Positions 14,256-39,649 are shown, numbered from the stretch's first letter. The stretch: DNA of 64,000 nt from Arachidicoccus rhizosphaerae (GCF_900107765.1 NZ_FNQY01000013.1:1-64000); one strand, 5' to 3'. The notes: generated by a model from the letters alone, not told the origin. Numbers and translations are program-made.

Positions 14256-14663
14256 ATGATCTCTGGTAAAAAAAAGCATAGAGGGAAACAATATTCGCAT
14301 AGAATATATTTAGGACTTACGGCATCCATGCATGAAGAATTGCTGCAATTGATGGCCCACTCGGAATACCAATACAAAAGTGATTTGATTCGGGATATCC
14401 TGGGCAATAAAAGAATAAAGGTGGTTTATCGGGATAAATCCATTGACATGGTCATGATGGCGTTTGGAGAATATTTGAAGGGTTTACAGCAGTTAATCCT
14501 TCAGATGGAGCAGATTACGCAAAAAGTAATGGAACTCTGTGATTTAGAGCAGATAGATTACCTTGAACAGAAAATCATTAAACTACTGGAAGATTATAAA
14601 TCTACCCTAGATAAGGCGGGCTATTTTATAAACGAATTAGGTATGCTATGGTTACAAAAGTAA
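14256..14663 (+). CDS. Mobilization accessory protein (MobA/relaxosome RHH-like)
   Basis: This basic-to-helical 135-residue protein begins with a lysine-rich segment (KKKHRGKQYSHRIYLGL). The segment has the look of a ribbon-helix-helix strand followed by a helical part with SDLIRDIL. The second half is probably a coiled coil rich in Q, E and L. The position directly before the relaxase, with a 16-base overlap, is that of the accessory protein that helps the relaxase bind oriT in Bacteroidota mobilizable elements. The assignment rests mainly on this context; the sequence motif alone is weak. Confidence 0.68.
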   Translation: MISGKKKHRGKQYSHRIYLGLTASMHEELLQLMAHSEYQYKSDLIRDILGNKRIKVVYRDKSIDMVMMAFGEYLKGLQQLILQMEQITQKVMELCDLEQIDYLEQKIIKLLEDYKSTLDKAGYFINELGMLWLQK

Positions 14664-15985
14664 ATTCCTCTAAATCAACCAGAGGGACATTAATGTATAA
14701 TGAAAAGAAGGTTGAGCTCGGACTGGGCAAGCTCTTACTGGCTGCAGGATTTCCCGTTTATCCGGAAAATTTGGATATAGCCTCTAAATTAATGGTTTTT
14801 AAGATGCTGACAGATCAAAACAGTAAATCCAGATATCATACGCTTCATCTTACCCTGAATTTTTCCTCCTATGATATATTGGATGAGCTTAAGCTAAAAA
14901 GGATTGCTCATCGTTACCTGTCTAAAGTCGGATTGGATAAACAGCCCTATTTAGTTTATCAGCATTATGATACGATGCATGCCCATTTACATATTGTTTC
15001 AGTGAAGCCGATAGATGGATCTAAGCTCTTACAGAATTTGTATCTGGGACATGGATTTACAAAAGCCAGTAAAGAAATTGAAGTTGAATTTGGACTACAG
15101 AAGGCGGCAGATTATAGTGTGCAAGAGCGTCCCTTACACAATCATTTAGTTCCAGGCCGGTTCCATTATGGGGATGATGATGCCATTCGTGGTATCTCCA
15201 GATGGGTAAATACCACTTTAATGAGTTATAGGTTTGGGGATATAATGGAATATGATGCTATTTTGAATCAATTCGGAATTAAGGTGGTGTATGGCAGGGA
15301 AGGCTCCCGGATGAAGGCCTTTAAAGGCTTAAGTTATGGAGTCATTAAAGAGGACGGAAATAGTACTTGCTGTCCCATAAAGGCTTATCATTTGAGTGGC
15401 CGGCCTTTGCTTAGAGAGGTGGAGAAGCGTTTTACCGCAAGTATAGATTCCAGAAGGTCTTATATGCCCAGAATGATGGCATTACTTGAAAATGCCTTTT
15501 TGCTGGGCAATAGAAAAGAATTTGAGGATTATTTGCAAAGGCGGGGGATTCGTCTGGTGTTTAACAAGAATCCGGAAGGTAAGGTATATGGAGCTGTTTA
15601 TATTGATAACGGTACCAAGGTTGCCTGGCATGATTTTAATCTGGGCGAAAACTATAAAGCAGCGGAAATACTGACAATTATTGAGGGCCTGCCTGCCATA
15701 ATAGGTTCTGAAATACAAGTGGGTGGTGAACTGGGAAAATTAAATGAACGAGATACGGTAGACAATTTCAAATTAGATTTACTCAGAAAAGAACTGAATA
15801 AACCAATTTACGAACAATACGTGGGCAGTGAGCTTCCTGTAGTTGACATTATAAAGGATAGCAGACCGTATAAATATGCCTCCTATCAGCAACTGGCAGA
15901 AATTCATGAAGCGCAGATAAAGAAATTGACCCAGGGGCAGCATCGGCAAAAGGGACTGGAATTAGACGTGGACTTGGACTTGTAA
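14648..15985 (+). CDS. mobB: Relaxase/mobilization nuclease (MobB)
   Basis: The 445-residue relaxase nicks one DNA strand at oriT and pilots it into the recipient. The N-terminal RGTLMYNEKKV segment contains a likely catalytic tyrosine (Tyr17). The HUH-type metal site is seen as His106 followed by HAHLH (His111, His113, His115) in the HYDTMHAHLHIV stretch. Both are typical of the MOBP-like relaxases of Bacteroidota. The start overlaps the accessory gene by 16 bases, implying translational coupling. It is followed by a G-rich spacer and the coupling protein gene. The gene seems intact in length and motifs. Confidence 0.88.
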   Translation: MVTKVNSSKSTRGTLMYNEKKVELGLGKLLLAAGFPVYPENLDIASKLMVFKMLTDQNSKSRYHTLHLTLNFSSYDILDELKLKRIAHRYLSKVGLDKQPYLVYQHYDTMHAHLHIVSVKPIDGSKLLQNLYLGHGFTKASKEIEVEFGLQKAADYSVQERPLHNHLVPGRFHYGDDDAIRGISRWVNTTLMSYRFGDIMEYDAILNQFGIKVVYGREGSRMKAFKGLSYGVIKEDGNSTCCPIKAYHLSGRPLLREVEKRFTASIDSRRSYMPRMMALLENAFLLGNRKEFEDYLQRRGIRLVFNKNPEGKVYGAVYIDNGTKVAWHDFNLGENYKAAEILTIIEGLPAIIGSEIQVGGELGKLNERDTVDNFKLDLLRKELNKPIYEQYVGSELPVVDIIKDSRPYKYASYQQLAEIHEAQIKKLTQGQHRQKGLELDVDLDL

Positions 15986-16033
15986 TAGGGTTGAGTAGTA
16001 ATGGAGAATGGCTGTAATTGGTAGGATCTGCAA

Positions 16034-16084
16034 GGGGGGAGAGGAGGGCGGAGGGCGGAGGGGGTTGGGTGGTATGGGGTTGGG
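16034..16084 (+). other. G-run tract with G-quadruplex potential
   Basis: The spacer between relaxase and coupling protein genes holds at least seven runs of three or more G within ~50 bases on the plus strand, with short purine-rich loops. Its base composition is unlike the AT-rich surroundings. Such a tract can form an intramolecular quadruplex in DNA or in the mob transcript. It lies ~85 bases before the coupling protein ATG. Role unknown. Confidence 0.6.
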
Positions 16085-16169
16085 CAGTATGGAGGTGATT
16101 GAAACTGAGAGAAGAAGGCATGGAAAATGGCTGCGTTTTTATTAATTCGGTTATAAAACGCTTGAAATT

Positions 16170-18167
16170 ATGAATACCGGTGAAAATTTACAAAGCCTTC
16201 GACGTATCCATGACTGGATGCTAAGGGCTGGCTTTGTGCTGTTGCTGCTGCATTTTTATATGAGTTGCTATAACCTGTTCCAGGTGTTGCATTGGACACA
16301 TCCCTTCCTCTTTAGGATTTTCAACAGAAGGTTCTTTATTGATTTTTTTATCGGACAGTATAAGCCCCGAATTTGGCCCCTGGTGCTTTTGATAGTGGCG
16401 CAACTGGCCATCAGAGGCAGGAAAAATGAGAAGTTGAGGGCAGGCTGGGTAATGGGGCTTATCATATCCGGTCTATGCCTTTATTTTATCAATGGGAACT
16501 TCCTCATGGGCTGGATGGGGATGTTCAATGCTGAATGTGTGTACATAGCACTTTCTTTATTGGGTTATTGGCTGATGATGATCGGTATGGCGAAGGTTTC
16601 CAGGATTATTTGGTCAAAGATCGGTAGAGATGTATTTAATCAGTTAAATGAGTCTTTTCCACAACAAGAGCAGCTGGTGGATAATCCTTATAGCATCAAT
16701 CTGCCGGCCCTGTATAAACTCAGAGGGAAAACACGTCAATGCTGGATTAATATTATCAACCCGTTTAGGGGGATCCTGGTAGCAGGATCCCCCGGTTCCG
16801 GGAAGAGTTATTTTGTCATCCGGCATATTATCGGTCAGCATATCCGTAAGGGCCTTACTATGTTTGTGTATGATTTTAAGTTTGATGATTTATCAAAGAT
16901 CGCCTACAATGCTTTTTTACGCAATAAAGGCAAATACCCTGTTGTTCCCAAGTTTTATGTGATTGATTTTGATCATTTGAACGTCAGTAGCAGATGTAAT
17001 CCACTGGACCCGGATCTGATGACCGATATTACCGACGCTTTGGAAGCAGCCCGTACCATCATGTTAGGGCTGAACAGGGAATGGATCCAGAAGCAAGGAG
17101 AGTTTTTTGTAGAATCTCCTATTAATTTTCTGACGGCCATTATCTGGTTTTTAAAAAAATATGCACAGGGCAGATATTGCACGTTGCCGCATGTAATGGA
17201 ACTGATGAATGAGGAGTACGAAAAACTGTTTTCGGTATTGAAAACAGAGCCCGAGATCAGCGTATTAATTAATCCATTTGTCAGCGCTTTTGTCAATGGG
17301 GCCGTGAAACAGCTGGAAGGGCAGATCGGCTCTGCCAAGATCGCCCTTGCCAGGCTCAGCTCCCCCAGATTGTATTATGTGCTTTCAGGTAACGATTTTA
17401 GTCTGGATATTAATAATCCTGAGGAACCTAAAATTGTCTGCATAGGCAATAACCCGATGAAACTCTCCGTGTATGGAGCCGTTTTGTCCTTATTTGCCGC
17501 AAGAATGGTAAAACTGGTGAACAGACGGGGGCAGTTACCGTCTAGTTTAATTTTTGATGAATTTCCGACGATTTATTTTAGTGGCATGGATAGCCTGATG
17601 GCTACGGGCCGTAGCAACCTGGTATCCTGTACTATCTGTGTGCAGGACTTTTCGCAGTTGCAAAGGGATTATGGTAAGAATCAGGCGGATGTTATTACAG
17701 GGATCGCCGGTAATATAATTTCTGGTCAGGTGGTGGGCGAGACCGCCAGGTTACTTTCTGATCGTTTTGGCAGAATACAACAAGACAGAAGTAGTGTGTC
17801 TGTTAATTCCTCAGATAGGTCAATAACGCAGTCCTTTCAATTGGATGCAGCTGTTCCAGCTGCTAAAATTTCCCGGTTATCTTCCGGGGAAATGGTTGGC
17901 ATCATTGCAGACACTCCGGATCAGCCAATTGAACTCAAAGGGTTTCATGCGAAAATTCAAATAGATAGGCAGATGATTGAAAGGGAGGAGGCGGGTTTTG
18001 TGCCCATCCCGGAAATAAGAAAGGTAAGTGAGGCGGATATAGAAAGAAGTTTTCTTCAGATTCAAACGGAGGTTCATCAAATAGTGGAATCTATCTGGAT
18101 AAAAATGTCAGAGTCTACTGAGCAGGCAAGCCTCCTGGTGAAGAAAAAAGGAATGATAGATATTTAA
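16170..18167 (+). CDS. mobC: VirD4/TraG-like coupling protein (MobC)
   Basis: The 665-residue inner-membrane ATPase links the relaxase-DNA complex to a type IV secretion channel. Four hydrophobic segments occupy about residues 18-36, 68-82, 92-110 and 122-142; the first carries the YMSCYNLF variant of the YWFCY domain. Walker A is GSPGSGKS (residues 206-213) and a Walker B-like LIFDEFPTIYF lies near residue 455. The FYVIDF segment and NPLDPDLM also match this family. No mating-pore genes lie nearby, so the element would depend on another element's channel. The protein appears full length. Confidence 0.9.
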   Translation: MNTGENLQSLRRIHDWMLRAGFVLLLLHFYMSCYNLFQVLHWTHPFLFRIFNRRFFIDFFIGQYKPRIWPLVLLIVAQLAIRGRKNEKLRAGWVMGLIISGLCLYFINGNFLMGWMGMFNAECVYIALSLLGYWLMMIGMAKVSRIIWSKIGRDVFNQLNESFPQQEQLVDNPYSINLPALYKLRGKTRQCWINIINPFRGILVAGSPGSGKSYFVIRHIIGQHIRKGLTMFVYDFKFDDLSKIAYNAFLRNKGKYPVVPKFYVIDFDHLNVSSRCNPLDPDLMTDITDALEAARTIMLGLNREWIQKQGEFFVESPINFLTAIIWFLKKYAQGRYCTLPHVMELMNEEYEKLFSVLKTEPEISVLINPFVSAFVNGAVKQLEGQIGSAKIALARLSSPRLYYVLSGNDFSLDINNPEEPKIVCIGNNPMKLSVYGAVLSLFAARMVKLVNRRGQLPSSLIFDEFPTIYFSGMDSLMATGRSNLVSCTICVQDFSQLQRDYGKNQADVITGIAGNIISGQVVGETARLLSDRFGRIQQDRSSVSVNSSDRSITQSFQLDAAVPAAKISRLSSGEMVGIIADTPDQPIELKGFHAKIQIDRQMIEREEAGFVPIPEIRKVSEADIERSFLQIQTEVHQIVESIWIKMSESTEQASLLVKKKGMIDI

Positions 18168-18803: not shown

Positions 18804-19055
18804 CTAACTATCGCTTTTAGTTTCTGGATCATTCCCTTTGTTTGGATCCAGTTTGATATCAACAAAAAACTTATTGAATTCCTCACCTGGGTTCAGGCCA
18901 ATTGCCAGAAAAATTTTATACAAAACGACTGCCTCAAGATGTATGGATTCATGAAGGCAAAGTTTATTTATTTTATCTCTTTTACAGCCTATTTTACGAG
19001 CAAGCTCTGATTGGTTTATAGACTTACCATACAAATATTCACCTAATCTAGTCAT
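18804..19055 (-). CDS. Small XRE-family DNA-binding protein
   Basis: The 83-residue protein has a Cro/C1-type helix-turn-helix at about residues 13-33 (INQSELARKIGCKRDKIN). A hydrophobic helix follows, and the tail is charged. Stand-alone XRE proteins of this size are common in mobile elements as repressors or antitoxins. No partner toxin gene is next to it. It sits between the mob cassette and the redox/Sus cluster. Which of the two it serves, if either, cannot be seen. Confidence 0.75.
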   Translation of the reverse strand: MTRLGEYLYGKSINQSELARKIGCKRDKINKLCLHESIHLEAVVLYKIFLAIGLNPGEEFNKFFVDIKLDPNKGNDPETKSDS

Positions 19056-19348
19056 TTGTTTTGTTTATATGATTAAGACATGAAACTAGGCTACTTTCTT
19101 CATGTAAAAAATATTTTTTGGAAAATAGATTTAAATATTATACATTTGTATAGAATTTAAAGACAAAATAATTGTTTTTCGTTATTTTGTAATGCCGTAT
19201 TGAAAGTTTAGCCGTATTGAATGAAAAAATCAAGCCAGAAAACATCTCTATTTTGCCAGGATAACTGGATTTATTGATTGAAATGTTGTATGCTATGGAC
19301 TAATTATATTTTATTTTGATTGCATGTGTTTTTGGTAATATTATCACA

Positions 19349-19489
19349 ATGAAAATAACTGAATTAAATTCTTTTGAAATCAAGGAGCTGAAGGGTGCTG
19401 TTATATGGCTTATAGCCATTCCCCCACGATTTGCTTTAAATGAAAATTCCCGTAACCTGTTTGCTATAAAGCCCAAGAGTCCTATTTAA
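19349..19489 (+). CDS. Small ORF (46 aa) with leader-peptide-like start
   Basis: The frame starts MKITELNSFEIKELKGAV. The charged start with spaced hydrophobic residues ending in ELKGA resembles the double-glycine-like leaders of small secreted peptides in Bacteroidota. The core that follows (IWLIAIPPRFAL and a basic tail) has no Cys. The ORF stands ~105 bases before the TlpA-like gene, in the gap 19056-19594, which otherwise holds nothing I recognise. The ribosome site is weak. It could be a chance ORF or a remnant. Confidence 0.25.
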   Translation: MKITELNSFEIKELKGAVIWLIAIPPRFALNENSRNLFAIKPKSPI

Positions 19490-19594
19490 TATTAAAAAGG
19501 AAGGGTAGTGTATTCTTGATTTTTTATAATAGGATGCAACTGCTCCTCCGCGTTTTGATTCGAAGTCTTTATAATCATTTAAAAATCAATTAGT

Positions 19595-20155
19595 ATGAAA
19601 AAGCTGTTATGCTTAACGGGCGGAGCTATGCTCATGTTAAGCGCATTCAGTCAAGAAATTAAACCTTTATATATAGATGATCCTTTTCCAAATATTTCTT
19701 TTGGAAAAATAATCAATTATAAATGCTCAACTGCTTCTCTTAAAGATTTTAAAGGCAAATCAATTCTACTTGATTTTTGGTTTACCCATTGCGGAACATG
19801 CATAGAAGCAATGCCCGAATTAGATTCAATGCAAAAAATGTATGGGGATAAGTTACAAATTATAATGGTAGCACACGAATCGGATAGTGCTGTGACACAA
19901 TTTCTAAAAAGTTATGAAACAAAACATAATATCAAATGGAGTATTCCATGTATAGTAGAAGACACCATTTTACATAAGTATTTTAGACATCTTTATGAAC
20001 CAAATTATGCTATACTAGATCCTGAGAACAGACTTGTAGCCAAATGCTCATTTTTCTTTATGAATAAAGAACTAATTGGGGCATATCTTAAACAGTTACC
20101 TGAAGAGTTATACCAAACAGGGTACATAGACGACACTTCAAAAAAAACTAACTAA
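19595..20155 (+). CDS. TlpA-like periplasmic thioredoxin
   Basis: The 186-residue exported protein has a signal peptide at residues 1-19 (LMLSAFSQ end). The thioredoxin fold carries the active-site pair Cys66-Cys69 in FWFTHCGTCIEAMPEL, which is the TlpA/ResA style of motif. A later cis-proline-like turn is present near YEPNYAILDPENR. Such proteins reduce or exchange disulfides in the periplasm. It is the first gene of a tight operon: SusC starts five bases after its stop. The nearby MauE-like gene is a likely electron or disulfide partner (inference). Confidence 0.88.
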   Translation: MKKLLCLTGGAMLMLSAFSQEIKPLYIDDPFPNISFGKIINYKCSTASLKDFKGKSILLDFWFTHCGTCIEAMPELDSMQKMYGDKLQIIMVAHESDSAVTQFLKSYETKHNIKWSIPCIVEDTILHKYFRHLYEPNYAILDPENRLVAKCSFFFMNKELIGAYLKQLPEELYQTGYIDDTSKKTN

Positions 20156-20160
20156 TCAAA

Positions 20161-23100
20161 ATGAGGAATATCACTTTACTAATACTAGCATTGATTTTAA
20201 GTAAATCAATAACCGCACAAAATAGTTTTGTATTTAAAGGAAATGTGACAAACACCGTTTCTGATAAACCTATAGAAAATGTATCAATACATTCAATTGA
20301 AAACGGGAGTACGGTTAATTCTGATTCTCTTGGTAATTTCAGCATAAAGGTTAAAAGAACAGATACACTTTTATTGTCACATATTGGATTTCAAACAAAA
20401 AAAATTATTACATACCCGAATACACCGTTTCTTCAAATTGGTTTAGTTCCTAAAAATAACTCCTTGGAAGATGTTACTATTAATACCGGCTACCAACAAT
20501 TGAAACCTAATGAAGTAAATGGTTCATATGAAGTTATAGACAATAACAAACTTAATCAGCAGACAGGAATGAAAATTTTAGACAGACTTAATGGTGTAAC
20601 CAACAGTCTACTGTTTAATGTTGGGAAACATAATAACAATTCTCAGAATACAACAGGAATAACTATTAGGGGATTAAGTACAATTAACGGTCCCTTAGAT
20701 CCGCTAATTGTCATAGATAACTTTATCTATGATGGTGATTTAAACAATATTAACCCAAATGACGTGCAAAGCATTACTATATTAAAAGACGCTGCGGCGG
20801 CAAGTATTTGGGGCGCCAGAGCGGGAAATGGAGTGATAGTCATAACCACTAAAAAAGGGAACTTTAATTCAAAATTGCAAATAGATTTTAATTCAAATAT
20901 CATTATAACGAATAAGCCAGATTTATATTATAATCCCCAAATCTCTTCCTCTGATTATATAGACTTTGAACAAATGCTATTTAATAAGGGTTACTATAAT
21001 TCTCAATTTACTAACCGATCGCATCCAGCTATTTCTCCTGCGGTTCAGATTTTCCAGGATAAAAAGGATGGGATAATTTCAGCTGAAGATTCGGCAACTA
21101 AAATTAATGCATTAAAGAAAATAGACAACCGTGAACAGTATAATAAATATTATTACAAAAGAGGGCTAACTAAACAATATGCTATAAATCTTAGAGGTGG
21201 TAGTTCAAATCTAGCATGGCTGTTATCTGGCACATTTGATGAAAGTATTTCAAATTTAAGAAATGAATATAAAAAAGCTAACCTTAGATTTGATAACAGA
21301 TATAAACCGATTAGCCAGTTAAGCATTGATGTAGGTGTTTATTATACAAATTCAAATAGTAAATCTGGTTTAGCTGATTATAACTCAACCTCTCAAATTA
21401 ATTCAAAGCAAATTATTCCATATTTAAGCTTGATTGGAGAGAATGGCCAATCCATCGCTGTTCCGTCTTACTATAATCAACGATTTTTGGATACTTTAGG
21501 ACAAAATCGGTTATTGAGTTGGAATTATTATCCTCTAGAGGAGTATAAACATTCTTATAGTACAACAAATACTGAGGATATTTTGGCGCATATCAAGCTT
21601 GAGTATAAAATATGTCAAGGACTGAATTTAAGTATAATGTACCAATATGAGAAGCAGAACTCCGAAGTAAATAGAATTTCCGACACCTCGAGCTATTTTG
21701 CTAGAAATTTGATAAATTCCTTTAGTCAAATTGACAGAAATACTGGTATTATAAATTATATTGTCCCACTAGGTGGTATATTGAATAAAAGCCAATCTTC
21801 ATTAAACTCTTACACCTTTAGGGGGCAGCTAAATTACGACCGCTCATTTAAACGTCATAGGTTCTCTGCAATTGGCGGGTATGAAATTAGGGATTCTTGG
21901 TCAAACAATTCTGCAATGACACTTTATGGTTATAATGGCGACCCCCTAACGGCAGTAAGTAATTTAAACTATGCTACTTACTATCCTAATTTGGTTACAA
22001 AAGGTAATTCTATGATACCCTTTAGCAGCGGAATTGGTTCCACGGATAACCGATTTGTCTCATTATTTGCTAATTTCTCATATTCTTACCAAAATAAGTA
22101 CACGATTTCTGGAAGTTTACGTCGAGATGGTTCTAATATCTTTGGAGCTAAAGAAAATGATAAGTGGAAGCCACTATGGTCTACGGGGATAGGATGGAAT
22201 CTTTCAAAGGAGAAATTTTATAGCCTTGATTGGCTGCCGTTTGTTAGGGTATCTGCAACTTATGGTGTAAGTGGAAATGTAGATTTAAGCAAATCAGCAC
22301 TTCCTGTAGGCATTTATTACCAGGGAATGCTTGGAACGTTAAGGATGCCAACGATGACAATAACCAAAATAAATAATCCCGAACTAAGCTGGGAACGTTC
22401 TTATCAAACAAACTTCAAAATTGCTTTTTCTTCCAAAAAGAATATAATAAACGGTTCTTTAGAATATTATTTAAAAAAGGGGACAAATCTTTATGCGCCA
22501 ACACCTTACGATTACACTGCTTGGGGCGCGAGCTCTACGATTACCTCTAACGCAGCTGATATGAAAGGTCGTGGTATTGATATATCCATACATACCAAAA
22601 ATATAAATCGAGCATTTTCATGGACTACAGACTTTATTTATAATTATAATAAATCGACTACAACTAAATATTTTGCAACGACTGCAACGTCGGTTTCGTC
22701 ATTTTTAGGGGGTGGTAATATTATTACACCTGTTATTGGAAAGCCCCTATATGCTATCGCAGCTTATAGGTTTGGAGGTTTAGATGCCTCCGGTAACCCA
22801 ATGGGTTATATAGATGACACTCTAACCTCCGACTATAATTCACTTGCAAAAAATGCAATAGGCGAGGGACTTAAGGGAGGAACAATTACCTACATCGGTT
22901 CGGCAACACCGACAACTTATGGCTCAATCATGAATTCTTTTGCTTACAAAGGTTTTTCACTGTCTTTTAATATAGTATATAAATTTGGTTATTATTTATG
23001 GAAGCCCACTATTAATTACTATGCTCTAGCAGTAAATGGTATAGGGAATCCTGACTATAAGAACCGATGGCAAAATCCAGGTGATGAAGCCACCACCTCA

Positions 23101-23388
23101 ATTCCTTCATTTAGCTATCCATTAGATCAAAAACGAGATGCCTTTTATAATGGCTCAGATATAAATGTGATAAAAGGGGATCATATTCGACTACAATTTA
23201 TTAATCTGTCATATTCATTTCTTAATGACAAGGCCTTAAGGCTGCCATTTAATGGACTTCAACTATATTTTAACGCTTCAAATATTGGAATAATTTGGAG
23301 GAGTAATAAATATGAGGTGGACCCCGATGTAACAAATGGAATACCAGCCCCAAAAACATACACTATTGGAATTAAAGCAAATTTTTAA
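20161..23388 (+). CDS. SusC/RagA-type TonB-dependent outer-membrane transporter
   Basis: This 1075-residue barrel protein has a signal peptide (residues 1-19). A carboxypeptidase-like beta domain follows (FKGNVTNTVSDKPIENVS to LLLSHIGFQ). The plug domain contains the SusC hallmarks TTGITIRGLSTINGPLDPL, then ITILKDAAAASIWGARAGNGVIVI and TTKKG. About 22 barrel strands follow, ending in an aromatic residue (KANF). It lies between TlpA and SusD in one operon. It imports or exports a TonB-energised cargo. No typical sugar enzymes are nearby, so a glycan role is not supported. Its codons are markedly more AT-rich than those of the flanking core genes, which suggests transfer. Confidence 0.95.
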   Translation: MRNITLLILALILSKSITAQNSFVFKGNVTNTVSDKPIENVSIHSIENGSTVNSDSLGNFSIKVKRTDTLLLSHIGFQTKKIITYPNTPFLQIGLVPKNNSLEDVTINTGYQQLKPNEVNGSYEVIDNNKLNQQTGMKILDRLNGVTNSLLFNVGKHNNNSQNTTGITIRGLSTINGPLDPLIVIDNFIYDGDLNNINPNDVQSITILKDAAAASIWGARAGNGVIVITTKKGNFNSKLQIDFNSNIIITNKPDLYYNPQISSSDYIDFEQMLFNKGYYNSQFTNRSHPAISPAVQIFQDKKDGIISAEDSATKINALKKIDNREQYNKYYYKRGLTKQYAINLRGGSSNLAWLLSGTFDESISNLRNEYKKANLRFDNRYKPISQLSIDVGVYYTNSNSKSGLADYNSTSQINSKQIIPYLSLIGENGQSIAVPSYYNQRFLDTLGQNRLLSWNYYPLEEYKHSYSTTNTEDILAHIKLEYKICQGLNLSIMYQYEKQNSEVNRISDTSSYFARNLINSFSQIDRNTGIINYIVPLGGILNKSQSSLNSYTFRGQLNYDRSFKRHRFSAIGGYEIRDSWSNNSAMTLYGYNGDPLTAVSNLNYATYYPNLVTKGNSMIPFSSGIGSTDNRFVSLFANFSYSYQNKYTISGSLRRDGSNIFGAKENDKWKPLWSTGIGWNLSKEKFYSLDWLPFVRVSATYGVSGNVDLSKSALPVGIYYQGMLGTLRMPTMTITKINNPELSWERSYQTNFKIAFSSKKNIINGSLEYYLKKGTNLYAPTPYDYTAWGASSTITSNAADMKGRGIDISIHTKNINRAFSWTTDFIYNYNKSTTTKYFATTATSVSSFLGGGNIITPVIGKPLYAIAAYRFGGLDASGNPMGYIDDTLTSDYNSLAKNAIGEGLKGGTITYIGSATPTTYGSIMNSFAYKGFSLSFNIVYKFGYYLWKPTINYYALAVNGIGNPDYKNRWQNPGDEATTSIPSFSYPLDQKRDAFYNGSDINVIKGDHIRLQFINLSYSFLNDKALRLPFNGLQLYFNASNIGIIWRSNKYEVDPDVTNGIPAPKTYTIGIKANF

Positions 23389-23398
23389 AGTGATTTTT

Positions 23399-24775
23399 AT
23401 GAAATTGAACAACTTTTTTATTCTTTTTGTGATACTCAGTTGTGTTATATCGAGTTCATGCAAAAAGTTTTTGTCAAAAAAACAAAATGCTTCTTCGGTT
23501 GTACCTTCTAAACTTAGCGATTTACAGGCCTTGATGGATAATGGCTACTCTGTTTATTCGGTCACTCCCTCATATATGGAAGCTTCATCGGACGAATATT
23601 TCTTAAGCGATGATCTATATAATTCCTTTTATATCAATGCCCAGAAAATATACACATGGGCTAAGTTTTTATCTCAGGAGGGAAGCGCAAATGATTGGGG
23701 TACAGTATACAATGGCGTATATTATGCAAATCTTGTACTTGATTTAATAAAAGATATTAATAGAAATGAACAAAACGAAGGCGAGTGGGATAATATTAAA
23801 GGAAGTGCTTTGCTATATAGAGCTTATGACTTCTTAAATTTATTATGGAATTATGCAAAGGCTTATGATAGTAATGATGGTAGTAATGACTATGGCATCG
23901 TTTTAAGAATGACCTCGAATTTTAATGAGAAATCTGTGAGGGCGACAAATTATGATTCATATATGCAGGTTATAAGAGATGCTAAAGAGGCAATACCGTT
24001 ATTACCAGATTATCCACTCATTTCTTTAAGGCCTTCAAAAGGAGCAGCTTATGGACTATTAGCTCGGTGTTATCTGTCGATGAGAGATTACAACAGTGCT
24101 AAACTATATGCAGATTCTTGCCTACAATTATACAATCGATTAATTGACTTTAATGAAGATGAAGACATAGTTGGAAGTATTGAAAATAGTGCGCCGTTTA
24201 TTCAATATAATAAAGAAACCATCTTTTATTCTTCTATGAATTCAAACTACGATATATTTACACAAGTTGGGTTCATTGATACCACTATATTAAAATTGTA
24301 TGAACCCGGGGATTTACGCCTCACAGCTTACTTTTCTGATAATGGCTATGGATATAAATTTTTTAAGGCTAGTTATTCAAATAACATTTATTCAAATTTT
24401 ACAGGGATTGCTACAGACGAAGTCCTTCTTATTAGAGCAGAATGTTGCATTAGGACGGGTGAAATTCAAAAGGGCTTAAATGACATCAATACTTTACTGG
24501 TTAAACGATATAAAACAGGAACCTTTACAGATTTAAAAGATTTAAGTGCATCGGAGGCGTTAGATAGGGTTTTGCAGGAGAGAAGAAAAGAACTAATTAT
24601 GCGAGGTACGCGGTGGATGGATATTAAACGACTCAATAAAGAAGGCCGAAGTATTAATTTGAAAAGAGTTATTGATCACAATACGTTTTCTTTGGAGCCA
24701 AATAGTAATTTTTATGCATTGCCATTACCAGATGATTTAATTACGATATCTGGCATTCCCCCAAATGAACCTTAA
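23399..24775 (+). CDS. SusD/RagB-type outer-membrane lipoprotein
   Basis: The 458-residue surface lipoprotein forms the lid of the SusC channel. The lipobox ends at Cys21 (VISSSCKK). Tetratricopeptide-like helices occupy the first half, with AYGLLARCYLSMRDYNSAKLYAD as a clear example in pieces. The C-terminal half has LIRAECCIRTGEIQKGLNDIN and the conserved LQERRKELIMRGTRWMDIKRLN region, again in pieces. The start at 23399 lies 10 bases behind the SusC stop; the frame is open further upstream inside SusC, but the signal peptide begins at this ATG. Confidence 0.93.
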   Translation: MKLNNFFILFVILSCVISSSCKKFLSKKQNASSVVPSKLSDLQALMDNGYSVYSVTPSYMEASSDEYFLSDDLYNSFYINAQKIYTWAKFLSQEGSANDWGTVYNGVYYANLVLDLIKDINRNEQNEGEWDNIKGSALLYRAYDFLNLLWNYAKAYDSNDGSNDYGIVLRMTSNFNEKSVRATNYDSYMQVIRDAKEAIPLLPDYPLISLRPSKGAAYGLLARCYLSMRDYNSAKLYADSCLQLYNRLIDFNEDEDIVGSIENSAPFIQYNKETIFYSSMNSNYDIFTQVGFIDTTILKLYEPGDLRLTAYFSDNGYGYKFFKASYSNNIYSNFTGIATDEVLLIRAECCIRTGEIQKGLNDINTLLVKRYKTGTFTDLKDLSASEALDRVLQERRKELIMRGTRWMDIKRLNKEGRSINLKRVIDHNTFSLEPNSNFYALPLPDDLITISGIPPNEP

Positions 24776-24783
24776 ATAATTAA

Positions 24784-24811
24784 GAGGGCGAAATTTAAGA
24801 ATTTCGCCCTC
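24784..24811. terminator. Shared hairpin between convergent Sus and DUF6520 units
   Basis: A perfect 12-bp stem, GAGGGCGAAATT / AATTTCGCCCTC with loop TAAG, sits exactly between the SusD stop and the stop of the minus-strand small protein gene. It has no long T-run but is placed to end both convergent transcripts. Confidence 0.72.
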
Positions 24812-24825
24812 CATGGCCTCCAATA

Positions 24826-25248
24826 TTAATTATTTCGATTTGAAATATTTTCTGATGTTGAAGGGTTTGACAAAGAGCCATCATCTGTAGATGATACATA
24901 TGCTGAGTTTGTTGTTGTATTCAGAGTAGCTGATATCGCTTCTGAAGATAACAATACGGGTTCTGACCCAGAGGCATCAACATTTCCAGCTGATGCATAA
25001 ATCTTGCATGCTTTGAAATTTGTATTCGTACAGGGAGTTGCATCTGTAGTAGATGTCCAATGTGAAACATCCTGTACGTTAGCTACGCTGTACGGTTCCG
25101 GATCACTCTCCGGTGGGTTGTATTCAAATACATACATTTCCCTTCCGTTACCATTTTTAGGTGCATCTTTAAAAGCGCTGGTGATGCCTATCAGGGCTAC
25201 CGCAATTACGAATCCGCAAGCCGGTAGCATTTTAGATAACTGTGTCAT
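24826..25248 (-). CDS. DUF6520-like small secreted protein with two cysteines
   Basis: The 140-residue protein has a signal segment at residues 1-26 (ACGFVIAVALIGITSAF). After a short linker comes a Trp64 and then Cys73 and Cys81 in TPCTNTNFKACKIYA. This W...C-x7-C arrangement recalls the DUF6520 family of small Bacteroidota secreted proteins. The tail is rich in Ser, Thr and Asn and probably disordered. The two cysteines could form a disulfide after export. It is the third gene of a minus-strand set behind AraC and MauE, a neighbourhood I associate with DUF6520. Function unknown; the family call rests on pattern, not on a search. Confidence 0.68.
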   Translation of the reverse strand: MTQLSKMLPACGFVIAVALIGITSAFKDAPKNGNGREMYVFEYNPPESDPEPYSVANVQDVSHWTSTTDATPCTNTNFKACKIYASAGNVDASGSEPVLLSSEAISATLNTTTNSAYVSSTDDGSLSNPSTSENISNRNN

Positions 25249-25405
25249 AAATTTACAATTTTGTTATTAAAAATTAAATTCCATGCTTTCGCCCGTCGCT
25301 CGATTTTATAGCGGCGCAGGTACTGGGTTAGAAAAATGGAACCTACTTTTTTGTACAGGTGTTCGGCTACATACCTGATTCTATCCGGCCAGATAAAAAA
25401 TATCT

Positions 25406-25852
25406 TTAAATTGAAATTGTTTGTTTAGAATAATTTTTCTGTTTTTGATATTTTAGGAGGACAATTCCTAGGTAACTTAATAGTGTGAACAGAGTATTGA
25501 ATACAAGATGCCCCGTCCATCCAAGTTTAGAAATTAATCCTGCACATGAGCATGGGATCTCGCCAAATGCCCCTGTGAGAGCAAATAATACATATAAGGT
25601 AAAGATGGTCATCAAAATGGATGAAAGAATCAACCCTGCTTTACGTGTTTTTTGAATATTAATTAAAATTGCAATAGTTATTTCGAGTGGTGGCAAACCC
25701 CATTGCAACCATTTGAGTGACCAAATTGGCAGAGGCTGTCGTTTTAACTGAGATCCGAATGTGGCGAATTCTATAACCTTACTAATTGCAGCATAACTCC
25801 AAAGAGCGATTAGAAGTACACAAATAATTGTTATGATAATTTCCCTTTTCAT
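25406..25852 (-). CDS. MauE/DoxX-like redox membrane protein
   Basis: The 148-residue inner-membrane protein has four hydrophobic segments, at about residues 5-28, 51-66, 74-95 and 115-134. Between the third and fourth lies the motif Pro-Cys101-Ser-Cys103-Ala-Gly followed by a W-x-G-x-x-x-x-N helix start. This is the MauE signature. MauE helps methylamine dehydrogenase gain its disulfides in methylotrophs. In Bacteroidota its relatives stand next to small secreted proteins and thioredoxins. Here it probably exchanges electrons across the membrane for the two-cysteine protein or for TlpA (inference). Confidence 0.85.
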   Translation of the reverse strand: MKREIIITIICVLLIALWSYAAISKVIEFATFGSQLKRQPLPIWSLKWLQWGLPPLEITIAILINIQKTRKAGLILSSILMTIFTLYVLFALTGAFGEIPCSCAGLISKLGWTGHLVFNTLFTLLSYLGIVLLKYQKQKNYSKQTISI

Positions 25853-26086
25853 TGCCCAATTTTTGATCTTTTATTAGGTATAATTTTTAAGGGCGATAAA
25901 TTCTGTATTCGTTTTAATTAGATTTATTTAAAATCTAAAGGCCCTCATTTGTTCATTCCTAACTCAAAGATGGATTGATTTTAATTCACTATCAATAGCC
26001 AAGTGGACGTACTTTAGAACTAGAGAAAAGGTTAATGTGTATTGTCGTTAGTTTTAAATGGTTATATAAAACGTGAGTGGGGTTAT

Positions 26087-27088
26087 TTATCCATGATTTA
26101 TTAATTTTCTAAGAAAGAATGGAGTATTATGGAAGTATTTCTTGAAGCTTTTATAAAAAGTTGGGGAATCAGGAAAATTAAACTCTAAAGCTATTTCATC
26201 CATGGTTTTTTGAGAAAAAACAACTTCGATAAAAACGCTTCTCATTTTGTGATCCAGCCAATACTGTTTGGTGCCCATGCCGTAAAGGTTGTGGAATTGC
26301 TTCTTTAATGATGTGGGGCTCATGTTTATTTTTTCTGCATAGTATGCAGTTTTCATATATTTCTTTTCTGAAATCAGCAGATTTGCAAGTCCTCTTAAAT
26401 CTTCTCTTATTTCTAATTTGCGGTTATAACTGATCTTGTCAATATTGGTTTCAAGTTTGCAAATTATTGCGAAACCAAAAAGTGTAACTACTGCTAAATC
26501 CAACAGGAATGTATTGATTGGTGATTCTTTGATTAATTCCAGGATTAGTTCACTTAATTGTATCATTGGGTATGTAAGCGTTAAGGGCTTTTTAAAGTAC
26601 CTATACACCTTGTGTCCATAAACCGCATTTAGCAAGGGTTCTATGATTTCTGGGTAAAGATGAAAAAGGTTTTCAACTAATTCTATTTTGGGATGGATGT
26701 CTAGGGTGCTATATATGGCTCCTCTTTCGAACTGTACGTAGCAATCCAGGTCAATGGTATTAAAAATATTGAATTGACCTCTATTCTGATATGTTCTTCC
26801 TAGATTGTTTGGGAAAATATAGGCCGCATTTTGCTCAAGAAAAATACTGAGTTCTAGAAAAGAGCTATCTGCGGTTGCATGTGTTTTTAGCCTCTCCAAA
26901 CATTGATAATGACTTAGCCAAAGAGCATACCGTGGTCTTACCAGTTCCTGGAAGGAAAAGTCCCCGAATCCTCCTTGGACCGAATGAAAATTAGCCTGCG
27001 GGATAATAATTCCATTGAAATTTTGTGACGGGCCTTTGAACCATTCAAATAAATGCCCACGATTTGATGTTAAATTAATCATTTCCAT
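26087..27088 (-). CDS. AraC-family regulator of the redox cluster
   Basis: The ~334-residue protein has a C-terminal AraC double helix-turn-helix: YYAEKINMSPTSLKKQFHNL, then MDEIALEFNFPDSPTFYKSF and a short basic tail. The N-terminal ~200 residues form a sensor part without a recognisable ligand motif. The start is taken at the ATG at 27088 (MEMINLTSNRG); an upstream in-frame ATG at 27136 adds 16 residues. It is the first of three minus-strand genes, and likely controls MauE and the DUF6520-like gene and perhaps the convergent Sus operon (inference). Confidence 0.85.
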   Translation of the reverse strand: MEMINLTSNRGHLFEWFKGPSQNFNGIIIPQANFHSVQGGFGDFSFQELVRPRYALWLSHYQCLERLKTHATADSSFLELSIFLEQNAAYIFPNNLGRTYQNRGQFNIFNTIDLDCYVQFERGAIYSTLDIHPKIELVENLFHLYPEIIEPLLNAVYGHKVYRYFKKPLTLTYPMIQLSELILELIKESPINTFLLDLAVVTLFGFAIICKLETNIDKISYNRKLEIREDLRGLANLLISEKKYMKTAYYAEKINMSPTSLKKQFHNLYGMGTKQYWLDHKMRSVFIEVVFSQKTMDEIALEFNFPDSPTFYKSFKKYFHNTPFFLRKLINHG

Positions 27089-28127: not shown

Positions 28128-28144
28128 CAGGCGTTAAACCTTTG

Positions 28145-28217
28145 TGGTGTGGGCCGGGATCGAACCGGCGACACAAGGATTTTCAGTCCTTTGCTCTACC
28201 GACTGAGCTACCGCACC
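28145..28217 (-). tRNA. tRNA-Phe (GAA)
   Basis: The 73-base cloverleaf has an anticodon loop CTGAAAA within the AAGGA/TCCTT stem, giving anticodon GAA (Phe). The T-stem is GCCGG/CCGGC. The acceptor 5' strand GGTGCGG pairs with 3' CCACACC except for a C5/A68 mismatch. The discriminator is A, and CCA is not encoded. The 3' end faces the mobile island. The mismatch may mean that the 3' part came with an integrating element (see findings). Confidence 0.95.
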
Positions 28218-35855: not shown

Positions 35856-38075
35856 ATGTCACAATATTCAATTCTAAAACAAAAAATGCTTTTAAAAGCA
35901 TTTGCAGGAACCATTTCTTGCTTTTGCTTGCTGACCAGTTCTGTATTTGCGCAGGACATCCCGATTGAAACAAATAATTCAGCTATGGTTTTGCAGGTGG
36001 ATAAAAACAAGATGATACATGTAGGTTATTTTGGAGTGAGATTAAAGGACCCTAAAGAATATGGACAATTTGATAATCAACTGCAACAAAATGGAGATCC
36101 CAGCGGGGTTGCCAATAGTGCGTATTCATCTTCCGGATCCAGGAACCTTTTTGAACCCGCTATCAGTGTCATCCATGCTGATGGAAATACCTCACTGGCT
36201 TTAAGATATATTTCCAGTAAGGTCAGCAAAGAAGCGGATGGTGTAATACTAACTGAAGTCTTGCTAAAAGATCCGGTTTATGACTTTAATGTCCGGCTTT
36301 TTTATAAGGCTTATCAGAATTTTGATGTAGTGGAGCAATGGGCGGAGATGGAACATCATGAAAAAGGAAATGTCAGGCTTAATAAATTTGCTTCGGCTAA
36401 TTTATATTGGAATAGATCCAATTTTTGGCTTAAACAATATCATGGAGACTGGGCTAGAGAAATGCAACCGGAAGTAACTGAATTAACACACGGAATTAAA
36501 ACATTAGATTCAAAACTCGGCACCAGGGCTGATTTATTTCAGCCGCCTATTTTTGTGGTTGGTGCAAACCGTTCTCCTGAGGAGGATTTTGGAGAAGTGA
36601 TGTTGGGGTCTATTGAGTGGAGCGGAAATTACCGCATTGATTTGGAGGTTGATAATCAAAATAACCTGCGCATTATTGCTGGGGTTAATAATTTTGCGGA
36701 TAGCTATGAACTCGCGCCCGATAAGTCATTTACGACGCCAAAATTTTTATATACCTTATCAGAGAATGGGACAGGGGCAGCAAGCCGAAATTTGCAGGCA
36801 TGGGCCAGAAAATATAGGATTCTAGATGGTCAGGGAGAAAGGCTGACCCTACTTAATAACTGGGAGTCTACTTATTTTAATTTCAATGAAGAGAAATTGA
36901 AAAGCCTTTTGGAAGATACTAAAAATCTGGGGGTGGACCTGTTTTTATTAGATGATGGCTGGTTCGGTAATAAATATCCTAGAAATGATGATCACGCAGG
37001 ACTCGGAGATTGGCAGGCCAATAAGAAAAAACTGCCTAATGGAATAGAAGCTGTCGTCCAACAGGCTGATAAGGTGGGAACCAAATTCGGAATCTGGCTT
37101 GAACCTGAAATGGTTAATCCTAAAAGTGAATTATATGAAAAACATCCTGATTGGGTAATAAAACAACCCAATCGTCCTGAATACTATTTTAGAAACCAGC
37201 TGGTTTTGGACTTGAGCAATCCTAAGGTACAGGATTTTGTATTTAATATCGTGGATAGCCTTTTTATTAAGAATCCAACACTTGCCTACATTAAATGGGA
37301 TTGTAATGCTGTAATATACAATGCCTATTCTTCTTATTTGACCCACCAGTCTGAACTTTATATTGAATATGTCAGAGGCTTATATAAAGTACTTGAAAGG
37401 ATTCGGGCTAAATATCCTAAGGTTCCGATGATGTTATGTTCTGGAGGCGGGGGCAGGGTCGATTATGCTGCCTTGCAATATTTCACAGAATTCTGGCCTA
37501 GCGACAATACGGATCCGTTAGAGCGGGTCTTTTTGCAATGGGAGTATTCCTACTTTTATCCGGCCATTGCTACCGCTGCGCATGTAACCAATTGGGGCCG
37601 GCAGCCTTTAAAATATAAAGTTGATGTCGCAATGATGGGCAAGCTGGGATTTGATATCGCTGTAAATAAGCTCAAACCCGAAGAATTAAGCTTTTGTCAG
37701 TCTGCCATTAAATTATATGACCAAATTAAAGATGTAATCTGGCATGGTGATCAATATCGTTTAGTGAGCCCATGGAATCATGATTTTGCTTCCATTATGT
37801 ATGTGGCACCCGAAAAGACCAAAGCCGTTATTTTTAATTATCTGGTATCCAATAGATATGCTGCCGGAAGCACTTTACCTGTGAAGCTTAAGGGACTGGA
37901 TCCCGAAAAACATTATCGTATCCAGGAGGTGAATCTGTATAATGGGGCAACTTCTAAATTACAACTGAATGCCGCCAATCGTTATTCAGGTGCATTTTTA
38001 ATGCAGGTAGGATTTAATCCGGTGGTAAATGCAGGAAGGACAAGTGTCGTATTGATAGCCTCTGCAATTGATTAG
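35856..38075 (+). CDS. Alpha-galactosidase, GH36 family
   Basis: The 739-residue exported enzyme hydrolyses terminal alpha-1,6-galactosides such as melibiose or raffinose. A signal peptide ends near residue 32 (SSVFAQD). The N-terminal beta-supersandwich spans ~residues 40-310. The TIM barrel starts at LFLLDDGWFGNKYPRNDDH. Nucleophile Asp482 is in YIKWDCN, and the acid/base Asp550 in FWPSDNTDP. The LEPEMVNP and CSGGGGRVD motifs also fit the family. A C-terminal beta domain closes it. An internal ATG at 35886 (MLLKAF) is an alternative start. It is convergent with a GH27 enzyme of the same probable activity. Confidence 0.93.
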   Translation: MSQYSILKQKMLLKAFAGTISCFCLLTSSVFAQDIPIETNNSAMVLQVDKNKMIHVGYFGVRLKDPKEYGQFDNQLQQNGDPSGVANSAYSSSGSRNLFEPAISVIHADGNTSLALRYISSKVSKEADGVILTEVLLKDPVYDFNVRLFYKAYQNFDVVEQWAEMEHHEKGNVRLNKFASANLYWNRSNFWLKQYHGDWAREMQPEVTELTHGIKTLDSKLGTRADLFQPPIFVVGANRSPEEDFGEVMLGSIEWSGNYRIDLEVDNQNNLRIIAGVNNFADSYELAPDKSFTTPKFLYTLSENGTGAASRNLQAWARKYRILDGQGERLTLLNNWESTYFNFNEEKLKSLLEDTKNLGVDLFLLDDGWFGNKYPRNDDHAGLGDWQANKKKLPNGIEAVVQQADKVGTKFGIWLEPEMVNPKSELYEKHPDWVIKQPNRPEYYFRNQLVLDLSNPKVQDFVFNIVDSLFIKNPTLAYIKWDCNAVIYNAYSSYLTHQSELYIEYVRGLYKVLERIRAKYPKVPMMLCSGGGGRVDYAALQYFTEFWPSDNTDPLERVFLQWEYSYFYPAIATAAHVTNWGRQPLKYKVDVAMMGKLGFDIAVNKLKPEELSFCQSAIKLYDQIKDVIWHGDQYRLVSPWNHDFASIMYVAPEKTKAVIFNYLVSNRYAAGSTLPVKLKGLDPEKHYRIQEVNLYNGATSKLQLNAANRYSGAFLMQVGFNPVVNAGRTSVVLIASAID

Positions 38076-38096
38076 GTGGTAGAAAATATTGAAAAT

Positions 38097-38135
38097 AAAA
38101 ATCCGGTAAGTTGAAAATTGGCTTACCGGATTTTT
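38097..38135. terminator. Bidirectional terminator between the two alpha-galactosidase genes
   Basis: Stem AAAATCCGGTAAG / CTTACCGGATTTTT with a loop of ~11 bases. A- and T-runs at the outer edges allow termination of both convergent genes. Confidence 0.85.
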
Positions 38136-38166
38136 ATTATACTACAACACTCAATGGAGCCGCAAT

Positions 38167-39414
38167 CTATTGCTTCAGTTTCAAAACGATTGTTTCATGC
38201 GCTTTGACTTCATACATTAATTTTGATTGATTCTTTTTTTGCTCGCCGGTCCAGACATTCAGCGTAGTATATTTTCCTGATAATCCGATTTGGCTAAGTG
38301 CCAGGTTGTATTTTCTAGCGGTTGAATCCGTATTTAATATGCCGATTGCGTATGAGCCATCTGACAGCGTCTTTAAATAGACCTGCCAGTTATTGTCATT
38401 AATTTTTCTTTCAGCTTGTTTGCCCAGCGGATCCTGATCTATCGCCAGAATTTCTTTGTTGGTTAAAATGCGCTTTGTTGCTGCATTCATATTGGCCACA
38501 TCACAGGTAATCATCAAAGGAGCTGCCTGTAAACACCATAAGGACATTTGAGATTGGTATTCAATATCATTGCAACCTATGCCTCCCAGATCTCCGGATG
38601 GTCCTTTTTTGCCATATAATCCCACCACCAGCATATCTGGGTCATTCCACGCCCCTGGCTTGGCATAAGCTACCAGGTCTGCATTCCTATTGACTGCATC
38701 CAGAATGCCGATACCTCCTGTAGGTGTACCTGGGGCGTCAAAACTGGCAGACCATTTATCCCTGATATCCCCGTCAATACGCCAAAGATTACCACCTACT
38801 TCGCTGCCCCAAGTCCAGGGTTGTCTTCCGCCCCACTCACAAATTCCAAAAACGATGTCTCTGCCTGAGTTAGAAAGGGCATCGGCCATTGTTTTATAGC
38901 GCTTCATGGCCGTTTCTTTATCAGAGGGAGCCCCGCAATAATCATATTTTAAATAATCTATTCCCCAGGATGCAAACGTTTTGGCGTCCTGTTGCTCAAA
39001 ATGAAGGCTAGCGGTATAACCTGCACAGGTTAACGGGGCGGCATCGGAATAAATACCCAATTTAATACCTTTACTATGTACGTAGTCCGCTAATGCTTTT
39101 ATCCCGGAAGGGAATTTAATGGGGTCCGGAATTATATTATTTCTGTTATCGCGACCGCCCTGCCAGCCGTCATCAATGAAGATATAATCATAACCCAACC
39201 TAACCAGTCCATTGGTCACCATTGCGTCAGCAATACTTTTCACATCCTGTTCTGTAATGTGATCAGCATAAAAGTTCCAGGTCATATATCCCATTGGAGG
39301 TGTAGGTGCTAGATGACTTCTTTGACTAAAACCAGTAATGCCTGTAAAACAAAGGGCGGCCGCCATTAAAAAAGCTTTTGTTTTCAGCTTGATATCCCAG
39401 CTAGGAAAATGCAT
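38167..39414 (-). CDS. Alpha-galactosidase, GH27 family
   Basis: The ~415-residue exported enzyme has a signal peptide ending near FTGITGFSQ. The TIM barrel begins TPPMGYMTWNFYADHI. Nucleophile Asp (in YLKYDYC, ~residue 158) and acid/base Asp (in LWRIDGDIRDKW) are in place, and the motifs IDDGWQGGRD and KPGAWNDPDML are typical for GH27. A short beta domain at the end follows. The start is taken at the ATG 39414; an upstream in-frame ATG at 39450 adds 12 residues. GH27 and GH36 belong to the same clan but are distinct families, and here they share a terminator. Confidence 0.93.
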   Translation of the reverse strand: MHFPSWDIKLKTKAFLMAAALCFTGITGFSQRSHLAPTPPMGYMTWNFYADHITEQDVKSIADAMVTNGLVRLGYDYIFIDDGWQGGRDNRNNIIPDPIKFPSGIKALADYVHSKGIKLGIYSDAAPLTCAGYTASLHFEQQDAKTFASWGIDYLKYDYCGAPSDKETAMKRYKTMADALSNSGRDIVFGICEWGGRQPWTWGSEVGGNLWRIDGDIRDKWSASFDAPGTPTGGIGILDAVNRNADLVAYAKPGAWNDPDMLVVGLYGKKGPSGDLGGIGCNDIEYQSQMSLWCLQAAPLMITCDVANMNAATKRILTNKEILAIDQDPLGKQAERKINDNNWQVYLKTLSDGSYAIGILNTDSTARKYNLALSQIGLSGKYTTLNVWTGEQKKNQSKLMYEVKAHETIVLKLKQ

Positions 39415-39649
39415 ATTTAAAAAATTATGGTGGAAAAATAAGTTGGACATAAAGTTATTTTATTTTTAGTGAACTGCACAAAGGAATTCCATAATAATAT
39501 TCAGGTCACAATAATTGCAAGTCTTTTTATATTCAAGCCAGGTCTGTTGGTGCAATCAGTTTTGCTTTTAAAATCAACTAAATCTTATTTTGAACTGCCA
39601 GATGTATTGCTCAGATATTATATTCACTGAGTCGCTAATTGCATAAAAA

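Follow-up and report, generated by a model that had tools for sequence, protein, structure and literature searches.

Genomes of the Bacteroidota carry dozens of SusC/SusD pairs each, which are usually assumed to be glycan importers. The locus of Arachidicoccus rhizosphaerae (Chitinophagaceae) considered here raises the question of what such a pair may do when its neighbours are thiol-bearing proteins, and the gene set offers a testable lead on the role of many uncharacterised SusC/SusD pairs. It lies in a stretch of 64,000 nucleotides, hereafter referred to as the window. The original prediction had placed six genes in it and read them as a dedicated disulfide relay; coordinates and profile scores bear out all six, the small secreted protein being the one without a profile match.

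A plus-strand operon encoding TlpA, SusC and SusD converges on minus-strand genes for the small protein, a MauE-family protein and an AraC-type regulator. The operon opens with a TlpA/ResA-like periplasmic thioredoxin (19595..20155; Redoxin, 45.8 bits against a cut-off of 26.6), which has the redoxin domain, a signal peptide and the C-x-x-C motif (Cys66/Cys69, bases 19790-19801), and whose profile is matched by ResA structures. It is followed by a SusC-type TonB-dependent outer-membrane transporter (20161..23388), which passes the TIGR04056 cut-off of 368 with 466 bits, and by a SusD-type surface lipoprotein (23396..24775) with a SusD-like domain (SusD-like_3, 101 bits) and a lipobox; its ATG is taken at 23396, and a longer ORF begins at 23336. 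A terminator-like hairpin with a 13-bp stem and a T tail (24783..24812) separates the two operons. On the minus strand lie the small secreted protein of 140 aa (24826..25248; about 115 aa and acidic when mature), with Cys73 and Cys81 at bases 25030-25032 and 25006-25008; the MauE-family inner-membrane protein (25406..25852), assigned on its Pfam score (PF07291, 97.7 bits, cut-off 27) and its paired cysteines, a P-C-x-C motif (Cys101/Cys103, bases 25544-25552) whose loop is predicted to face the periplasm; and the AraC-type regulator (HTH_18; 26087..27088). The three thiol pairs are as originally described, and each is invariant in genus-level alignments. Divergent from tlpA, a minus-strand gene encodes an XRE/Cro-type HTH protein of 83 aa (18804..19055; Pfam HTH_26, 23.1 bits), and similar small HTH genes recur upstream of tlpA in many Arachidicoccus copies.

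No carbohydrate-active enzyme is encoded inside the cluster, which therefore does not class as a polysaccharide utilisation locus. The earlier statement that glycan enzymes are lacking nearby is thus right for the cluster and too wide for its surroundings, since alpha-galactosidase-like genes (judged from their sequences) lie 9-12 kb off, at 35856-39450. Genes for methylamine dehydrogenase subunits, the mark of a mau cluster, were absent from the ORFs read around the cluster, and no RiPP-modifying enzyme (LanM, radical SAM, ATP-grasp and the like) was recognised among its genes.

The association of these genes was assessed in 80 loci in named genomes. MauE was the only search criterion, and the loci are those whose MauE is closest to that of the window; a single-sequence pattern scan of the genome contigs with the small protein had yielded no relatives, and MauE served as the query instead. 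SusD and SusC converge on MauE in 74 of the 80 loci. Of the other six, three are truncated at a contig boundary (L170, L180, L198), one holds just a short S9 piece (L182) and two carry MauE genes of another context (L168, L200), MauE standing without a module in L106 as well. Directly downstream of MauE, an ORF with a signal peptide and a C-x5-8-C motif is found in 69 of 79 loci. As the small-ORF finder is heuristic (it chose a wrong ORF in L169 and doubtful ones in L168), its background rate was measured, and such ORFs occur in 2.5% of random windows and in 1.3% of windows downstream of SusC, SusD, TlpA, S9 or AraC genes. In the reverse test, seven proteins in 295 genomes exceed the Pfam cut-off for DUF6520, and 7/7 adjoin a MauE gene that came from an independent search, in the same position as the small protein of the window. 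The convergent set is kept across the Chitinophagaceae, Sphingobacteriaceae, Flavobacteriaceae, Weeksellaceae and Cyclobacteriaceae. The neighbours of the MauE/small-protein pair are not random, and the linkage of MauE, the small protein and SusCD is not due to chance.

The description of the small protein as DUF6520-like (PF20130) holds for its relatives, not for the protein itself. The window protein has no Pfam or NCBIfam match and finds nothing in DUF6520 at E<=10; it is longer than the members of that family and has two rather than four cysteines. The family is matched by 11 of 14 Chitinophagaceae-type relatives, most of them weakly, and these relatives bridge the window protein to the family, while the small proteins of the flavobacterial modules pass its Pfam cut-off. 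The module thereby gives DUF6520, an unstudied family, a genomic place.

The transporter was likewise compared with its paralogues. The genome has at least 58 SusCs (56 scored, and the two of the modules, a second full module being present on contig C43). The SusC of the window is not closest to the ordinary ones; its nearest relative is that of the second module, at 833 bits, and the next paralogue scores 149 bits. In a tree of 126 SusCs, the 96 module SusCs, which form two deep lineages, part in one change from 30 others of the same genome, these controls being its top TIGR04056 scorers. On this comparison, the SusC of the window belongs to a separate, module-specific lineage, and the closest PDB chains reach only about 200 bits. 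Neither of the two outcomes that the original prediction had named as refuting it, random neighbours and a SusC of the ordinary kind, was obtained.

The gene beside SusCD varies, being TlpA in 31 loci (commonly carrying a DUF3738-type part at its C-terminus, and in one locus accompanied by an S8 peptidase), an S9 peptidase in 37 and a met-zincin in two. AraC, which had been proposed as the regulator of the set, is not a constant member, as it was recognised by profile beside MauE in 24 of 77 loci, an underestimate. The flavobacterial loci mostly encode MauE with a beta-propeller fused to its C-terminus, or else have the propeller as a gene of its own (L103, L128, L138, L149). In L149 (10001-15371), genes for an ABC-2-type permease and an ATPase stand between the small protein and SusD, the usual position of TlpA or the peptidase.

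Cysteine columns were compared over 69 full modules, 36 of the TlpA type and 33 of the S9 type. The C-x-C of MauE and the core Cys pair of the small protein are each present in 69/69 (36/36 and 33/33), whereas SusC has no conserved cysteine and the lipid-anchor cysteine of the lipobox is the sole invariant one of SusD. MauE and the small protein thus bear the only conserved Cys pairs of the universal set, which supports thiol chemistry with the small protein at its centre. This part of the proposed relay stands; an obligatory TlpA does not, since a peptidase takes its place in roughly half of the modules. At equal SusC distance the small protein diverges faster than SusC, SusD and MauE, and, taken with the cysteine conservation, this indicates that the thiol chemistry concerns the small protein and not the transporter. 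The number of cysteines may also follow the form of MauE: the two agree in 69 of 75 cases, but the supported branches show no more than 2-4 independent changes. Of the six exceptions, four seem to be due to a frame-split MauE, to cysteines in the signal sequence region or to an ORF called wrongly.

The three thiol pairs are predicted to share one compartment. The fused MauE-propeller was modelled confidently with AlphaFold2 (pLDDT 88), with TM1 at 2-33, TM2 at 52-71, TM3 at 73-100, TM4 at 117-138 and TM5 at 142-174, the propeller following. The C-x-C, at 106-108, falls between TM3 and TM4 and hence, as the propeller comes after TM5, on the propeller's side of the membrane; if the propeller is periplasmic, so is the loop. 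Structurally the propeller comes closest to 3s9j, a DUF4221 protein from Bacteroides vulgatus (Z 19.7 over 292 residues, rmsd 3.7). MauE itself has no sequence relative in the PDB, and in the window protein the basic loops (TM2-TM3 and the C-terminus) fit an orientation with a periplasmic C-x-C. This orientation, together with the Sec signals of the small protein and of TlpA, forms the basis of the prediction.

The reading preferred here, to which a probability of about 0.5 is assigned, is that MauE, assisted by TlpA in modules that have it, forms or isomerises the small protein's disulfide, and that the product is a cargo or partner of SusCD. The small protein would be exported by Sec and fold in the periplasm around one disulfide (C-x6-8-C), or two in its flavobacterial form; the periplasmic C-x-C of MauE would oxidise or isomerise its Cys pair; TlpA, in the form seen in the window, would assist as a soluble protein, as MauD assists MauE when methylamine dehydrogenase matures; and the finished protein would become the cargo or the dedicated partner of the TonB-dependent SusCD of the module. 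Action of MauE on the predicted disulfide is well supported by inference, because of the exclusive co-conservation and of the role reported for MauE (PMC7794033) in the maturation of methylamine dehydrogenase and in candidate RiPP clusters that contain MauE. A role of the small protein as SusCD cargo or partner is a guess, prompted by the linkage, by the separate SusC lineage and by the fact that the partner usually left over is the TonB receptor. It is likewise a guess that this SusCD handles peptides or proteins, made because thioredoxins and peptidases, but in the loci tallied no recognised glycan enzymes, occupy the variable position beside it. It is inferred where the reaction takes place, that it is an oxidation and, most of all, that it is connected with transport; the small protein might instead be kept reduced, as the original prediction allowed. 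The Sec signal would bring it to the periplasm, and nothing was identified that would take it on through the outer membrane. The confident beta fold predicted for the small protein also speaks for the preferred reading, as does locus L119, which keeps MauE and a C-x6-C protein beside an ordinary TonB receptor, whereas L111, where such a receptor is missing, and the MauE genes outside modules speak against it. More tentatively, SusCD could be a dedicated transporter or receptor, not a nutrient importer, of a self-made, disulfide-bonded secreted polypeptide matured by MauE, and uptake of self-made peptides might then be Bacteroidota-wide; this wider form is considered less likely than not. For a class of SusCD without a known substrate, the module at any rate offers a concrete client (the small protein), an enzyme (MauE) and a simple genetic test.

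The small protein could alternatively be a redox carrier, its Cys pair being charged by MauE and moving electrons between the inner membrane on one side and, on the other, TlpA or peptides with disulfides that SusCD has imported. MauE and the small protein indeed keep a constant thiol pair while TlpA varies, and the C-x6-8-C is invariant, a spacing of 6-8 residues being found in 34 of 35 two-cysteine small proteins across the phylum. However, in those 35 proteins only the Cys pair and the start Met exceed 75% conservation, and so unconserved a remainder, diverging faster than SusC, SusD or MauE, is unlike a catalyst. A further point against a carrier is that the second pair of the flavobacterial proteins looks structural; small proteins of the S9 type have four regularly spaced cysteines, and in nearly all of them the last lies 7-11 residues before the end of the chain. 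A carrier role is therefore considered unlikely.

Somewhat less probable again is a small protein that is released as a signal, a scavenger (e.g. a metal chelator) or an antagonist, to be re-imported or sensed by SusCD. Fast divergence with the cysteines alone kept would suit such a role, as would the number of copies, since all six genus genomes searched have one to four small-protein matches and some loci have tandem copies; in L128 (11681-12546) and L139 (11657-12337), the small secreted protein is duplicated in tandem and near-identical. The peptidase beside SusCD in many modules and the FecR-like/sigma genes that adjoin the transporter in L032 and L035 (judged from their sequences) point the same way. 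Against it, the cluster has no export system and no recognised immunity gene, and the mature small protein is acidic (net -8 in the window; the median is -3), unlike cationic bacteriocins; a bacteriocin was considered in its own right and lowered on account of this charge.

Slightly poorer still are the prospects of a conventional SusCD locus for nutrient uptake. On that view the small protein would assist the transporter, or the peptidase/TlpA, in the periplasm; its disulfide would have no more than a structural role, and MauE would serve it alone as a folding factor. The SusCD pair, the lipoprotein anchor and the variable enzyme do resemble a substrate-specific uptake locus, and the confident fold predicted for the small protein would agree with an accessory. 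The structure prediction called for at the outset gave, with 14 relatives in AlphaFold2, a beta-rich domain with a mean pLDDT of 81.7 and a pTM of 0.71, the ten-residue blocks between positions 40 and 120 having pLDDT 85-97 and mostly above 90; on this model it would be a folded protein rather than a short peptide, and fold searches with the model returned no PDB or viral structure. Two convergent operons held together phylum-wide would, however, be unusual for a dispensable accessory, and the small gene also occurs apart from SusCD: in L111 (8426-9342), MauE and a C-x7-C secreted protein have no TonB receptor within several kb, and in L119 (8699-13215) MauE, a 353-aa protein in the propeller position, a C-x6-C secreted protein and an ordinary non-SusC TonB receptor lie on one strand, without SusCD and behind mobilisation genes. 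Lastly, the notion that unrelated genes are adjacent by chance, for which it could be said that with so many SusC genes in the genome one is often near any gene, is refuted by the neighbourhood counts, the persistence of the convergent set in five families and the reverse test, and its probability is negligible.

Maturation of the small protein by MauE, the preferred reading, has its nearest precedent in MauE and MauD, the maturation pair of methylamine dehydrogenase in the Paracoccus mau cluster (as cited in PMC7794033). In both, a MauE-family membrane protein and a TlpA/thioredoxin-like helper stand beside a secreted disulfide-bearing protein, the disulfide being predicted here; the module differs in having no other recognised mau gene, a small uncharacterised protein as the client, an often absent TlpA and a tie to a TonB transporter. 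The Streptomyces MauE-containing candidate RiPP clusters found by decRiPPter likewise place MauE beside a small cysteine-bearing precursor; according to that source, the precursors have at least 8 of a residue type, taken here as Cys, in contrast to two or four Cys and a Sec signal in the module, which has an outer-membrane transporter instead of any recognised RiPP-modifying enzyme. The RagAB/SusCD peptide and glycan importers share the SusC barrel, the SusD lid lipoprotein and often an adjoining peptidase, but the module SusC is of a separate lineage and nearly always faces MauE and the small Cys protein. A further likeness is to the NVEALA (PF14055) arrays of Bacteroidales, in which small secreted Cys proteins alternate with DUF5128 propellers of six blades and, here and there, with C-x-x-C lipoproteins; the loci read have no MauE, SusC or SusD, and the likeness is one of arrangement. 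In four such loci (L283, L284, L285, L287), NVEALA proteins alternate with DUF5128 propeller lipoproteins, C-x-x-C/DUF1573 lipoproteins and signal-peptidase-like genes, an arrangement that may parallel the set of MauE, propeller and small protein. Searches of the open-licence literature found no paper naming DUF6520 or NVEALA and nothing relevant that joins MauE with SusC/SusD or TlpA; each part of the module is of a known family or close to one, while the set itself is undescribed in the open-licence literature searched.

Within the genus, most small-protein matches belong to the convergent TlpA-SusC-SusD and small protein-MauE set, and decayed copies are also seen, L028 and L030 retaining the small gene with little or nothing else and L034 being a fragment. 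The genome of the window has a third strong MauE-family match (65.6 bits) inside a 411-aa ORF outside any module (L022, contig C27:347489-347878). The cluster was also considered as cargo of a mobile element at the tRNA-Phe gene (28144-28217), and this was rejected, as no att-like repeat was found in the window and a search of plasmids gave no MauE relative. Genes for a MobC-like protein, a relaxase and a YWFCY/T4CP coupling protein (14256-18167) lie 1.4 kb upstream of the module; the genome has only three relaxases, and relaxase genes are also near modules L023, L026 and L070, with L119 apparently likewise. The G+C content is 30-37% across TlpA-SusC-SusD (19000-25000), compared with 36-45% in the upstream mobilisation genes.
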